This document shows, piece by piece, positions 9,699-16,807 of a stretch of DNA of 38,622 nt. Position numbers and translations under genes: made by a program. The notes beneath the pieces were generated by a model, which ran no database searches, had not been told where the DNA came from, and saw only the letters and a list, made by a program, of their open reading frames with translations. This DNA comes from Lachnospiraceae bacterium (GTDB lineage: Bacteria > Bacillota > Clostridia > Lachnospirales > Lachnospiraceae): NCBI GenBank assembly GCA_021772075.1, contig JAETNQ010000035.1, positions 1 through 38,622 on the forward strand, in the 5' to 3' direction. The first letter of the stretch is position 1. Every line of letters starts with the position of its first letter.

Positions 9699-10499
9699 AT
9701 GGAAAGCAAAAAAAGCGTGGAATGCGGCATAATAATAGAAAGCCTGGAGCAGTTATGCGCCCCGGTGTTTGCAGAGAACTGGGACAATGTGGGACTGTTG
9801 GCGGGACGCCGGGATAAAGAAGTGGAAAAGATATGCATTGCAGTGGACGCGACGGATGCGGTCGTGGAAGAGGCGGTGAGGAAGGGGGCGGATATGCTTC
9901 TGACCCACCATCCGCTTATTTTTTCTGCCATGAAAAAGATCAATACGGATGACTTTATCGGAAGGCGCCTGGTAAAGCTGATACGGAACGATATCAGCTA
10001 TTATGCGATGCATACGAATTTTGATGTGATGGGGATGGCGGACGCGGCGGCGGACGAGATCCGGTTAAAAGAAAGACAGGTATTGAGCATCACTTATGAG
10101 GATGAGATCGCGAAAGAGGGGATCGGAAGGTACGGGAAGCTGCCCCAGGTTATGACGCTGGAAGAATGCGCCTCTTATGTAAAAGATGTATTCCATTTGG
10201 AGAGCGTGAAGGTTTACGGAGAAAGGGATGTGGCGGTAGAGTGCGCCGCCGTATCGCCGGGATCGGGCAAATCCATGATACGCCCGGCGGTGGAGGCCGG
10301 GGCGGAGGTGCTGATTACCGGGGATATCGAACATCATGAGGGGCTGGACGCGGTGGCCCAGGGACTGGCGATCATTGATGCGGGGCATTATGGATTGGAA
10401 AAGATTTTTGTTCCTTATATGATGGAGTATATCGAGAGGGAATTCCCGCAGATCGCTGTTTTTGCGGCGAAGGAAGGGAATCCGTTCTGGTTAGCGTGA
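9699..10499 (+). CDS. Nif3-like dinuclear metal-centre protein (YqfO/YbgI family)
   Basis: A 266-residue Nif3-family protein, corresponding to the short form without the middle PII-like insertion. Metal ligands are visible in LLTHHPLIF (about residues 69-77), in YAMHTNFDV and in DAGHYGLEK near the C-terminus, and GDIEHHEG is also typical. The family forms a hexameric ring with two metals per subunit; its activity is still debated (GTP cyclohydrolase-like or a tRNA/metal role). It follows trmK by 32 bp, a conserved pairing in Firmicutes. Its stop codon lies inside the first stem of the structured repeat at 10494. Confidence 0.92.
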   Translation: MESKKSVECGIIIESLEQLCAPVFAENWDNVGLLAGRRDKEVEKICIAVDATDAVVEEAVRKGADMLLTHHPLIFSAMKKINTDDFIGRRLVKLIRNDISYYAMHTNFDVMGMADAAADEIRLKERQVLSITYEDEIAKEGIGRYGKLPQVMTLEECASYVKDVFHLESVKVYGERDVAVECAAVSPGSGKSMIRPAVEAGAEVLITGDIEHHEGLDAVAQGLAIIDAGHYGLEKIFVPYMMEYIEREFPQIAVFAAKEGNPFWLA

Positions 10500-10605
10500 G
10501 AAGTACATCTAAAGCTCACGCCAGAGGGCGTTTCGCTAAGATGTACTAGACTTGCTTCGCAAGTCTTTCTCACGCAGAAGAATGCCCAAAATGCGGGCAT
10601 TCTTC
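10494..10605 (+). repeat. Structured palindromic repeat element, copy A
   Basis: A 112-nt element with five stems. P1 is 10494-10502 with 10567-10575. P2 is 10502-10510 with 10539-10547 (A10502 can pair in either P1 or P2). P3 is 10518-10522 with 10527-10531, with an AGAG loop. P4 is 10549-10555 with 10559-10565. P5 is 10577-10587 with 10595-10605. P1 encloses P2/P3 and P4 as a three-way junction, and P5 stands alone as a terminator-like hairpin without a T-run. The element begins at the nif3 stop codon. A second copy at 16642 keeps every stem while changing paired bases. Confidence 0.9.
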
Positions 10606-10699: not shown

Positions 10700-11977
10700 A
10701 TGAGGATAGAGCTGGAAAATGTGGGGAAAATTGGACGGGCGCGGATTGCATTGGACGGGATTACAGTGATCGCGGGCGAGAACAGTACGGGAAAGAGTAC
10801 TGTGGGGAAGATGCTTTATAGCGTATTTAAGGCATTTTATAAAATTGGGGAACATATTAGGGAAGAAAGAGTACGTGCTATTTATAATGTTTTTGCGGAA
10901 GGGGTTTTAATTCCTCCACAAGGTTCTTTAAAACAGTTGTTTTTTGGGAAAATTTCGCAGATGCTTGACGAGTTAGGTGAATATAGAGGAAATGAACAAA
11001 AAATTATTGACGAGTTTGAAGGCCTCTATAAGAAATTATTTTCCCATCCTTTGATTAAAGGAAATGGAGAGCGTTTAGAATCGAAAGCGAAAAAAATAAA
11101 TGATTATTTATATTTGGACGATGGAGAGCTGGTAAAGTTTATTCTTAAAAAAAGTTTGGAAGCGGAATTTGGGGAGACGATAGGGCATTTGAATTTCCCT
11201 GAGGAAGAGAGCCATATTGCTATAGAAATAAAGGACGATGCCATCGATTTTCAGGTGCTGGCAGACGGGGAGATAGAGATTCGGCAGTTTATCAGCCTGA
11301 TGAAGGAGATTATCTATATAGATGATCCGTTTGTGGTGGATAATTTGCATAGAAATGAGTTTCATGTTTTCGATACGCTGAGGCATCGGAGCGATTTGCA
11401 GAGGAAACTGGCGAAAGGCAAAGCCGGGCTGGAAAATATATTGGAAGAACTGGCCGTTCAAAAGAAAATGCAGAATATTTTAAATGCCATGAAGGGAGCC
11501 TGTGACGGTGAAATTGCAGCAGACTATTATGACAATTATGTATATAGATCCGAGGGGCTGCGGGATAGCTTGGCGATGGTTAATTTGTCCACGGGCATGA
11601 AAAATTTTGTGATACTAAAGCAGTTGCTGCAAAATGGAAGCATTGATGAGAACGGGATCATTATTCTTGATGAGCCGGAGATTCATTTACATCCTGAGTG
11701 GCAGTTGAAATTTGCGGAAATTATTGTGCTGCTTCAGGTGGAATTCGGCATCCATATTTTGTTGAATACGCATAGCCCCTATTTTTTGAATGCGGTTGAA
11801 GTGTATACGAATAAGTATGGAATCGGGAATAAGTGCAGATATTATTTAGCGGAAGAAAAAAATGGCAGAGTAAGTATGGAGGATGTTTCCCGCCAGATAG
11901 AGCTTATTTATGCGAAATTGGCAAGGCCGTTGCAGGATTTGGAAAATATGGGGTATTGGGATGGAAATACGGTATGA
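10700..11977 (+). CDS. AAA/OLD-like ATPase (AAA_15/AAA_21 type)
   Basis: A 425-residue SMC/ABC-like ATPase. Walker A is GENSTGKST (residues 26-34), an ABC-type signature LSTGMK is at 296-301, Walker B IIILDEPEIHLHPEW begins at 320 (Asp324, Glu325), and the switch histidine is in NTHSPYF (His358). The centre (about 60-280) is helical and charged, where family members carry the coiled-coil insert. There is no C-terminal TOPRIM domain, so it is not a full OLD nuclease. Ribosome-binding site GGGGG lies 4 nt before the ATG. It overlaps the next gene by 17 nt. Base composition is clearly more AT-rich than the flanking housekeeping genes, suggesting acquisition. ATPases of this kind are core parts of several phage-defence systems. 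Confidence 0.85.
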   Translation: MRIELENVGKIGRARIALDGITVIAGENSTGKSTVGKMLYSVFKAFYKIGEHIREERVRAIYNVFAEGVLIPPQGSLKQLFFGKISQMLDELGEYRGNEQKIIDEFEGLYKKLFSHPLIKGNGERLESKAKKINDYLYLDDGELVKFILKKSLEAEFGETIGHLNFPEEESHIAIEIKDDAIDFQVLADGEIEIRQFISLMKEIIYIDDPFVVDNLHRNEFHVFDTLRHRSDLQRKLAKGKAGLENILEELAVQKKMQNILNAMKGACDGEIAADYYDNYVYRSEGLRDSLAMVNLSTGMKNFVILKQLLQNGSIDENGIIILDEPEIHLHPEWQLKFAEIIVLLQVEFGIHILLNTHSPYFLNAVEVYTNKYGIGNKCRYYLAEEKNGRVSMEDVSRQIELIYAKLARPLQDLENMGYWDGNTV

Positions 11978-12557
11978 TGAAATAGAAATATTCCGCGATA
12001 ATATTTCTACGCTTAAGAAAACCTCGCTGGATGACGAAAATATGGTAAAGTACTATATGACGGATGCAGAGGTTTCGGTGATTCATTTTGATAAAGTGAA
12101 AAAAGCGTATGTCAGAAGCTTGGAGCGAAAGCCGAAATTTCTGCCCTGTTCCAGTGATGCGCTGTATATAGGAAGCGGAGGGAAGATCTGTTTTATTGAA
12201 TTTAAAAATGGAAAAATAAATGACAAACAAAAATATAACGTTTATCAGAAAATTTATGAAAGTTTATTGATTTTTTGCGATATTACAGGCGAGAGCATTT
12301 CTTTTTGCAGGAATCACGCAGAATTTATATTGGTTTATAATGAAACAAAAAATGACAAAATAAAAGAAGAAAAGGAAGAGGGCAGACTGCAAGAGTCCGA
12401 ATCAAGGGTAGAGATCGGTAAGTATTTCCATAGGAAAGGAAAGAAACATTTTATCAGGTTTGGTCTGGAAAGGTTTGAAAGACTGTATTTTCAAAGAGTT
12501 TTTACATATACGGAAGCAGAATTTGAGAATGAGTTTGTAAAAGGCATAAGCAAATAA
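11961..12557 (+). CDS. Small protein with PD-(D/E)XK-like signature, partner of the ATPase
   Basis: A 198-residue protein with no recognised family name. It shows Asp66 (CSSDALYI) and, 13 residues later, Glu80-Phe-Lys82 in a hydrophobic strand followed by NG (ICFIEFKNGK), then a helix with Lys and Gln (KQKYNVYQKIYES). This order matches the catalytic core of PD-(D/E)XK nucleases, though the fold is inferred. The C-terminal half is basic and aromatic (HRKGKKHFIRFGLERFERLYFQR). I chose the ATG at 11961; a longer in-frame start at 11910 lies deep within the ATPase gene and has no ribosome-binding site. Overlap with the ATPase gene implies coupled translation and probably a complex. Confidence 0.65.
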   Translation: MEIRYDEIEIFRDNISTLKKTSLDDENMVKYYMTDAEVSVIHFDKVKKAYVRSLERKPKFLPCSSDALYIGSGGKICFIEFKNGKINDKQKYNVYQKIYESLLIFCDITGESISFCRNHAEFILVYNETKNDKIKEEKEEGRLQESESRVEIGKYFHRKGKKHFIRFGLERFERLYFQRVFTYTEAEFENEFVKGISK

Positions 12558-14315: not shown

Positions 14316-14738
14316 GGTACTAAGTAGAATAAATGATCGCGGCCGCATCGAAAGATGCGGGTGAGGAAAGTCCGGGCTTCACAGGGCAGGATGCCGGATA
14401 ACGTCCGGTGGAGGCGACTCCAAGGCTAGTGCAACAGAAATAAACCGCCCCATGGAAGAGCTTTTGTTCTTTCGTGGAAAGAATCAAACTTGTTTGGTTC
14501 TTTGGCGTACCAGGCTTTTTGCCTGCTACGTTGGTAAGGGTGGAAAGGCAGTGTAAGAGACTACCGTCTGCCTGGTAACAGGCGGAGCCATGTAAACCCC
14601 ATCCGAAGCAAGACCAAACAGAAAGCGAAAGGCTTGCCCGGCCTGCTTTCAGGTAGGTCGCTGGAGATTACCGGCAACGGTGATCCTAGATAGATGATCA
14701 TTCACGACATAACCCGGCTTATCGTTCTGCTTAGTACC
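14316..14738 (+). ncRNA. rnpB: RNase P RNA
   Basis: RNA component of ribonuclease P, which matures tRNA 5' ends. The universal core is visible: GAGGAAAGTCCGGGCTTCAC in the 5' third (about 14363), the CAACAGAAA segment near 14442, the AGAGACTACCG region near 14568, and the 3' core GACATAACCCGGCTTA near 14706. The 5' end (GGTACTAAG at 14316) pairs with the 3' end (CTTAGTACC at 14730-14738) as stem P1, which sets the boundaries. A long stem near 14455-14530 is probably the variable P12 arm. Confidence 0.96.
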
Positions 14739-15867: not shown

Positions 15868-16639
15868 CAGTATACTTATTGGAATAGGTATTCCGTTTTT
15901 AGGGACAATGCTGGGGGCGGCCTGTGTTTTTCTGCTGAAAGGAGAAATGAATGCAATAATGCGCAAGGCGATGCTGGGATTTGCCTCGGGGGTAATGGTG
16001 GCAGCATCGGTCTGGTCGCTGCTGATTCCGGCGATGGATCTGTCGGAGCCGATGGGAAAGTTTGCTTTTGTTCCTGCGGCAGCGGGCTTTTTGCTGGGGA
16101 TTGCTTTTCTGCTCATTTTGGATCGGGTAGTGCCGCATCTGCATCTCGGCAGCGAAGAACAGGAGGGAATCAAGAGTAATTGGAAGAAATCCACGATGCT
16201 GGTACTGGCGGTAACGATCCACAATATACCGGAGGGAGCGTCCGTGGGGATCGTGCTGGCGGGGGCTATGGCCGGGGGAAGCCCGATTACTATGGCAGGA
16301 GCCATCGCTTTGTCGGTGGGGATCGCCATACAGAATTTCCCGGAAGGGGCGATCATATCGCTGCCGCTGAAAGAGGAAGCGGGAAAGGGAAAGGCTTTTG
16401 TGCTGGGGACGCTGTCCGGGATCGTGGAGCCGGTGGCGGCCGGTTTGACGCTGCTTCTGGCCGGCCTGATCGATCCGTTTATTCCTTATACCCTGGCTTT
16501 TGCGGCGGGGGCTATGCTTTATGTAGTGGTGGAAGAGCTGATACCGGAATCGGCAGAAGGGGAACATTCCAATATGGGAACGATTGGGTTTGCGGTCGGA
16601 TTCGTCATTATGATGGCGCTGGATGTGGCATTAAGTTAG
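15860..16639 (+). CDS. ZIP-family divalent metal transporter
   Basis: A 259-residue inner-membrane transporter of the ZIP family (zinc and possibly iron or manganese uptake). The metal-binding helix IV motif HNIPEG is in TIHNIPEGASVGI (about residue 120), and helix V carries IQNFPEGAIIS (about residue 157). About eight hydrophobic segments are visible. A cytoplasmic loop contains HLHLGSEEQEG (about residue 94), the expected variable metal-binding loop. GTG start at 15860 with AGGAGGAG 6 nt upstream. It overlaps the preceding gene by 8 nt. The structured repeat and a terminator follow directly. Confidence 0.93.
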   Translation: MNSSILIGIGIPFLGTMLGAACVFLLKGEMNAIMRKAMLGFASGVMVAASVWSLLIPAMDLSEPMGKFAFVPAAAGFLLGIAFLLILDRVVPHLHLGSEEQEGIKSNWKKSTMLVLAVTIHNIPEGASVGIVLAGAMAGGSPITMAGAIALSVGIAIQNFPEGAIISLPLKEEAGKGKAFVLGTLSGIVEPVAAGLTLLLAGLIDPFIPYTLAFAAGAMLYVVVEELIPESAEGEHSNMGTIGFAVGFVIMMALDVALS

Positions 16640-16641
16640 CA

Positions 16642-16752
16642 GTGTGAGAAGTACTTCTAAAGCTCATGCCAGAGGGCATTTCGCTAAGAAGTACTAGACT
16701 TGCTTCGCAAGTCTTTCTCACACCGAAGAACGCCTGAAATACGGCGTTCTTC
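16642..16752 (+). repeat. Structured palindromic repeat element, copy B
   Basis: Second copy of the element at 10494, with the same spacing until one deleted base in the P5 loop. P1 is 16642-16650 with 16715-16723, P2 is 16650-16658 with 16687-16695, P3 is 16666-16670 with 16675-16679, P4 is 16697-16703 with 16707-16713, and P5 is 16725-16734 with 16743-16752. It starts 3 bp after the ZIP transporter stop. Against copy A, four base pairs are changed on both sides. Confidence 0.9.
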
Positions 16753-16767
16753 CCGTTGATGGTTTGT

Positions 16768-16807
16768 GCCGCCGGGAGGCAGAAGCTGCCTGAAAAGCGG
16801 CGTTTTT
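16768..16807 (+). terminator. Rho-independent terminator after the ZIP operon
   Basis: An outer stem GCCGC (16768) with GCGGC (16797) and an inner stem GGCAG/CTGCC (16778-16790) are followed by GTTTTT. It ends transcription from the ZIP gene and faces the converging two-component operon, whose last codon is at 16835. Confidence 0.65.

Follow-up and report, generated by a model that had tools for sequence, protein, structure and literature searches.

Repeats of about 100 bases with a common branched fold, placed mostly at stop codons, in the Lachnospiraceae

The window analyzed here, a stretch of 38,622 nucleotides from a Lachnospiraceae bacterium of the Kineothrix group (GenBank assembly GCA_021772075.1, contig JAETNQ010000035.1; own genome, G000), contains two copies of a structured repeat on the plus strand. 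Copy 1 (10492–10605) lies at the 3′ end of a NIF3 gene and consists of a three-way junction, formed by helices P1 to P4, followed by a P5 hairpin. As read from the sequence and the predicted fold, the 5′ arm of P1 (10494–10501), which contains the NIF3 TGA stop codon (10497–10499), pairs with 10568–10575. P2 (10502–10547; 10502–10510 with 10539–10547) surrounds P3 (10513–10515 with 10535–10537 and 10518–10522 with 10527–10531), and the P4 hairpin (10548–10566; 10548–10555 with 10559–10566) is a module that is absent or replaced in other copies. P5 (10577–10605) pairs 10577–10587 with 10595–10605. Copy 2 (16640–16752) has the same architecture and starts right after the TAG stop codon (16637–16639) of a ZIP transporter gene; its three-way junction spans 16642–16723 (P1, 16642–16649 with 16716–16723) and its P5 hairpin spans 16725–16752 (16725–16734 with 16743–16752). 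The adjacent segment (16753–16779; CCGTTGATGGTTTGTGCCGCCGGGAGG) appears by eye to be the truncated beginning of the 3′ tail of a longer unit, a tail that is complete in other copies and ends there in GGGGGTTAG or similar. The repeat is slightly larger than given in the initial annotation: the conserved part begins 2 bases ahead of P1, hence the boundaries adopted here, and many Kineothrix copies extend beyond P5 through a linker and another GC-rich hairpin to an end that reads GGGGGTTAG or similar (by eye). What follows this end is either another unit or, for several of the copies, the start of the next gene (by eye).

At copy 1, the native end of the NIF3 gene has been replaced by the insertion: related proteins end, for example, in FWVMV or FWIL followed by their own stop codon, whereas the window protein ends in FWLA followed by the TGA of the element. 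Downstream (10700–12557), an ATPase gene (AAA_21/AAA_15) and a gene for a 215-amino-acid protein without a Pfam match, possibly a defense-type pair, are located between NIF3 and a uridine-kinase-like gene in the window and in the congener G003; in the other relatives compared, NIF3 is followed directly by the uridine-kinase-like gene, without this pair. We rejected the idea of a gene cassette comprising this pair and bounded by repeats because its other end carries no repeat. At the gathering score, the only Rfam match in the whole window is a class A RNase P RNA (14321–14737, 311 bits), used below as a yardstick of G-U content, and neither copy is matched.

The initial annotation had pointed to paired differences between the two copies, and all four are present at the given coordinates (by eye): C10495-G10574 versus T16643-A16722 in P1, A10507-T10542 versus T16655-A16690 in P2, C10519-G10530 versus T16667-A16678 in P3, and T10583-A10599 versus C16731-G16746 in P5. 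P4 (AGACTTGCTTCGCAAGTCT) has the same letters in both copies (by eye). RNA folding predicts the same form for both, in agreement with the five-stem form first described, at −61.4 kcal/mol for copy 1 (z = −10.1) and −56.4 kcal/mol for copy 2 (z = −10.3), with none of 200 shuffled sequences as low.

A blastn search with copy 1 yielded 23 matches (E ≤ 1e-3) in the own genome; of the 15 other congeneric genomes searched, 6 had matches as well. Some of these cover P5 alone; in the congener G013, such matches lie within whole units that have other stems. We then employed a covariance model (R1) built from 30 copies. In the window, R1 matches copy 1 (122.9 bits) and copy 2 (124.6 bits) only. At E ≤ 1e-3, it detected at least 38 copies in the own genome, at least 98 in G013, at least 91 in G015, at least 35 in G003, at least 27 in G004 and at least 15 in G006 (all congeners), and no copy in 5 of the genus's 16 genomes, among the best 150 candidates of each. 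In a family sample with one genome per genus, at least 22 of 299 genomes, the own genome included, had matches (best 12 candidates per genome). At E ≤ 1e-4, at least 6 of 295 genomes in an order sample matched, all from the same family (best 12 candidates per genome), and the own genome was the sole match among 398 in a phylum sample (best 9 candidates per genome); under these strict filters and among these best candidates, neither the phylum nor the order sample included a match beyond Lachnospiraceae. Because the filters were strict and only the best candidates of each genome were scored, all these counts of copies and genomes are minimum values. In Rfam searches of seven copy-bearing loci, with E up to 1 or 0.5, no match fell on a copy; the matches obtained, RT-2 at E = 0.38 and two ribosomal-protein leaders, lie off the copies. 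The plasmids and phages searched by blastn gave no match, and in the literature surveyed, mainly open access, we found no title or abstract describing the repeat. Thus, this is a real repeat family without an Rfam entry, consistent with the initial failure to assign it to a named family. Direct arrays also occur: in locus L164 (G027:C25, 1316–1736), four R1 matches with the same architecture follow one another, three of them at a spacing of about 92 bases.

Covariation was assessed in an alignment of 30 copies that was made from sequence only, with the structure taken from copy 1; the unit comprises 43 base pairs in six helices. In this alignment, 96.9% of the cells pair, and pairing falls to 40–47% when the partner column is displaced by one to three positions. 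Double changes affect 24 of the 43 base pairs and amount to 149 cells, compared with 42.0 ± 5.8 in shuffled and 4–15 in slid controls, so that the structure is under selection, as had been proposed from the two copies. When 116 distinct matches were aligned to the model, 41 of the 43 pairs showed double changes, in an alignment that leans toward the structure. Parsed units are 96–144 bases long and the ribosomal-operon copies about 86–98, for an overall range of roughly 85–145. Upon folding, most copies from other genera retain P1, P2 (with its CTAA/AAGA border), the inner hairpin and P5, with quite different letters; a few weak matches (L162 and L165) show no such fold.

The types of base pairs bear on the question of which nucleic acid folds. 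Of 122 matches, the best 100 were counted (two poorly aligned pairs of the 43 omitted, identical rows included); their 3838 cells comprised 3671 Watson-Crick pairs, 72 G-T, 35 A-C and 60 others. Accordingly, G-U accounts for 72 of 3743 standard pairs, less than 2%, compared with 9 of 98 in the one molecule used as a yardstick, the RNase P RNA of the window. This scarcity is odd for RNA and would not be predicted from a constraint on RNA only. A pure DNA palindrome, which the low G-U share suggested, was rejected because G-U is about twice as frequent as A-C: with G-U ahead by about two to one, strand symmetry is not shown. Counted as genome-level states, the non-Watson-Crick pairs include 46 G-U and 26 A-C (P = 0.024), an excess that is a mild, weak sign of folding of the sense strand. 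Copies in ribosomal operons share a mismatch in P2, A-G at its third pair (AGAA..TCT/AGAA..GCT type, by eye; L404 8549–8634, L405 6281–6366, L406 4275–4364 and L408 4176–4265, with the arms reversed in L284); judging from the sequence, it may be a protein-binding feature.

Placement relative to genes was examined in 65 copies, one per chosen locus, with the second units of tandem arrays mostly left out. The nearest upstream gene is in the same sense in 54 copies and in the opposite sense in 8, and none was called for 3. In 41 of the 65, the upstream stop codon ends at 0 to +9 relative to the start of the element; 9 of these stops end just ahead of the element, 20 use its first bases and 12 are a TGA or TAA within the P1 arm. 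Another 10 copies start at least 10 bases behind the stop, and 3 have the stop at +21 to +37. A second, overlapping set comprised the copies of G000 and G003 with loci, 60 of 75; here, too, the stop ends at 0 to +9 in 41. The association with gene 3′ ends that had been seen in the window, where copy 1 includes the NIF3 TGA and copy 2 abuts the ZIP TAG, thus extends to the family. The upstream stops are TAG, TGA and TAA, so a single target word does not explain the placement. Given that stops in two frames lie close to the beginning of the element, any insertion at a gene end would be expected to produce some of this placement; this does not explain the copies in other genera that lie right after the TAA stops of ribosomal-protein genes. 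In the 60 copies of G000 and G003, the tetranucleotide at the 5′ junction is TTAG in 24, GTAG in 21, ATAG in 3, GGAG in 3 and another in 9; the G of this GTAG/TTAG tag is usually paired in P1, and copies from other genera do not conserve the tag. On contigs C1–C3 of G003, 32 of 34 copies are on the leading (G-rich) strand (31 without the copy at C1:1194349, located where the skew switches sign; two C4 copies omitted), compared with 251 of 311 sampled genes (19 of 20 stretches, one with unclear skew omitted; summed by hand; binomial P = 0.028), a bias accounted for mostly by the orientation of the copies, which matches that of the gene. At the other end of complete Kineothrix units, the GG-rich terminus may serve as the ribosome-binding site of the next gene; the evidence is anecdotal, from single copies, and a script found such a site joined to a start codon in 2 of 53 cases, often choosing, as a longest-frame script, starts inside the repeat.

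Copies also reside within operons, with the genes named from translations by eye. They include copies between rpsE and rpmD (two genera), between rpsH and rplF (two genera and the congener G011, with a weak match in a third genus, G102), between rpsK and rpsD, rpoA and rplQ, and trpF and trpB (other genera), between pstC and pstA, rplW and rplB, and secY and adk, between gyrB and gyrA (L368), and between rpsN and rpsH (own genome and G003). Among translated copies from other genera, 6 of 23 are in ribosomal-protein or rpoA operons, and the spc operon of G102 has three matches, one of them weak (E = 2e-4). When the flanks of the copies were compared, ribosomal-protein genes were the only families that recurred in four or more genomes, four others being found in three. 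The rpsN–rpsH copy is identical at 85 of 86 positions between G000 and G003, which exceeds the conservation of the spacer that follows (82 of 93) and of rpsH (361 of 400) but not that of rpsN (181 of 186). In 30 rpsH loci of other genera, picked regardless of the repeat, the element is absent from all, and four of these genomes have repeats elsewhere; hence, the element is not needed at this site across the family. In L368 (G936:C4, 1501–1617), the gyrB–gyrA copy is followed by a repeated gyrB end and the start of a second unit, a direct duplication that takes in the end of the gene.

Orthologous sites differ in occupancy. The copy 1 site is filled in 3 of the 15 genomes compared (the window genome, G003 and G013) and empty in the 12 others (L175–L179, L181–L185, L189 and L212). 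The copy 2 site is filled in 1 of 10, the window genome, with a relic in G013 (by eye), and is empty in the other eight, including G003. A site has been gained or lost between genomes with about 84% DNA identity. A comparison of 30 copies from G000 with 30 from G003 yielded ten pairings at nine shared sites, where the flanks are 80–93% and the element 64–89% identical; P4 is present, absent or of a different sequence, and an extra hairpin is variably present at the P2/P3 border. In 7 of the 10 pairings, the predicted folds of the two members both follow the plan; in the other three, one member departs from it, in that the best predicted fold differs in P2/P4 (L307), the inner part is shortened (L314) or P5 is missing (L308). 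The mean likeness of copies within a genome is 0.83 in G000, 0.86 in G013 and 0.81 in G015, compared with 0.67–0.77 between genomes; the value for G003, 0.75, is not above the between-genome range. It is probably as DNA that the copies spread and are lost.

Under a purely selfish reading, the repeat would be a single-stranded DNA element of the IS200/IS605 or GTAG-REP kind that inserts beside TTAG or GTAG, with a Y1 transposase that has been lost or acts from elsewhere, and the stop-codon position would reflect a TAG target plus tolerance. The prevalence of TTAG and GTAG junctions, the leading-strand excess over genes, the TAG stop that GTAG-REPs often provide according to passages in PMC3733652, and a P1-like word, not an R1 match, 120 bases ahead of a Y1 fragment in L075 all fit this view. 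The distribution of the transposase does not: Y1_Tnp matches were found in 8 of 21 repeat-positive compared with 26 of 39 repeat-negative genomes of the family, leaving 13 of the 21 repeat-positive genomes, from other genera, without a match, as is G015 with its at least 91 copies (genome 92% complete). Among 49 of 50 Y1 loci scanned with R1 (the masked L062 excepted), only L061, from G012, has a copy, about 1 kb away, and the right end of the IS200-type gene there is unrelated to the repeat (by eye). The right ends of this TnpA subfamily are unlike the repeat in 3 of 5 loci (L061, L064 and L071; by eye, the others being cut or unreadable), so the repeat, compared with the ends that are legible, does not look like a nonautonomous derivative of this IS200/IS605 subfamily. 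In other genera, the tag is not conserved and some stops are TAA or TGA. We consider this selfish reading improbable, though it deserves to be kept in mind. Mobilization by a RAYT or IS200 element was rejected as such, on account of these right ends and of the lack of a Y1 match in most repeat-bearing genera; of the initial proposal of an RNA element or a REP-like repeat mobilized in trans, the selection for structure, the copy number and the 3′-end placement are borne out, and the tyrosine transposase is not. A Y1 subfamily at first looked confined to repeat-bearing congeners. The IS200-type TnpA genes of these congeners are mostly interrupted or truncated (L064, L066, L071 and L072) and open in G012 (L061). 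A reverse transcriptase was also rejected as the agent: RVT_1 has matches in part of the repeat-bearing and in part of the repeat-free congeners, and none in G015 or G012.

Alternatively, the repeat could be a conserved cis-acting operon RNA, originally of ribosomal-protein operons, multiplied by ordinary duplication and gene conversion without dedicated mobility. The share of other-genera copies in ribosomal-protein or rpoA operons, the high conservation of the rpsN–rpsH copy and the hairpin swaps at shared sites, which resemble conversion among copies, point in this direction, but the abundance in G013 and G015 next to the lack of any match in five other congeners, the gain or loss of a site between genomes with about 84% DNA identity and the 30 rpsH loci without the element make it unlikely. 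An intrinsic terminator or attenuator family would account for strong hairpins at gene 3′ ends, and an isolated P5-like match in the own genome (L024; G000:C69, 1501–1529) is followed by a T run. However, no terminator-like site was found near copy 1, a T run is absent after P5 among the full copies listed, and ribosomal-protein genes, normally coexpressed, have copies between them; we regard a terminator as very improbable. The L024 hairpin with its T run is perhaps an ordinary terminator that resembles P5. Chance, or a recent segmental duplication of one locus, could be entertained as long as the window, with its two copies, was all there was to see; dispersed copies in many genera, at least 38 of them in the own genome alone, and 149 double changes compared with 42 leave it virtually no probability and refute it.

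BOX elements are modular dispersed noncoding repeats able to form structure. RUP, ERIC and NEMIS are small dispersed noncoding repeats with the same ability, several repeats of this type having terminal inverted repeats and TA ends; the passages on them in PMC2229807 make no mention of strong double changes or of placement at stop codons. The closest parallels are GTAG-REPs, REPINs and BIMEs, which passages in PMC3733652 describe as palindromic and present in many copies, mostly between unidirectional or convergent genes, near the 3′ end of the upstream gene, where GTAG-REPs often provide a TAG stop and carry a short tag 5′ of the hairpin; all these features recur here. Yet the GTAG-REPs of that account are palindromes of 20–40 bp with an unpaired GTAG tag at one end, whereas the units described here span roughly 85–145 bases, with several helices and exchangeable hairpins, have TTAG as frequently as GTAG with the G usually paired, lose the tag in other genera and are also seen as direct tandem units. 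Genomes with GTAG-REPs also carry a RAYT gene, which repeats often flank (PMC3733652, in the passages considered), a trait that was not found for this family; the same passages note that some species may have lost their REPtrons and that most descriptions of tagged REPs concern gamma- and alphaproteobacteria. By behavior, the family is REP-like; by the tested criteria of size and transposase, it falls outside the GTAG-REP superfamily. Clostridial ribosomal-protein leaders (S10-Clostridia, RF03136; S4-Clostridia, RF03140) are structured RNAs of the same operon as the L404 copy, and both match in L404 (RF03140 just below the cutoff), but neither covers the copy; the repeat has other positions and another model. 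Integron attC sites carry RYYYAAC and GTTRRRY boxes and are associated with an integron integrase; GTTAG ends occur among the units here, and a complementary CTAAC box was not noticed by eye. Escherichia coli REPs located just behind a stop codon are said to stall ribosomes (cited in a passage of PMC12306157) and thus share with the present repeat a structure right downstream of the stop; the fold and the host differ, and the structure described here often overlaps the stop codon.

The reading that best fits these observations, to which we assign about an even chance, is that of a REP-like dispersed element that is cotranscribed with the operon and forms an mRNA structure abutting the stop codon. 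Each copy would present branched stems (a three-way junction, simpler in copies without P4) and a second hairpin, with the first base pairs mostly on or right behind the upstream stop codon, and would be read within the mRNA of the upstream gene. Because the fold begins on the stop codon, a terminating ribosome would have to open P1, and the fold could re-form behind the last ribosome as it leaves and act on the mRNA at the stop codon. The last ribosome and the structure would then have no bare RNA between them, an arrangement suited to blocking 3′ exonucleases or to a processing point; either might set the level of the upstream cistron, and the structure could possibly also slow termination. 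Such an element would be tolerated in operons because it supplies its own stops and, in complete Kineothrix units, the GG-rich end. That it is, moreover, placed by stop codons of any kind, serves operons, including ribosomal-protein ones, and is renewed by whole-hairpin exchange is a tentative proposal, somewhat doubtful as a whole, under which exchange of entire hairpin modules would let the fold persist at a site while many stem letters change.

Lachnospiraceae thus carry a larger, branched and strongly covarying repeat family with a placement tied to stop codons and without a transposase found. The many natural copies, the filled and empty orthologous sites and one well-conserved copy in a ribosomal-protein operon make the role of gene-end repeats directly testable and provide a clean case for how hairpins change both arms together.
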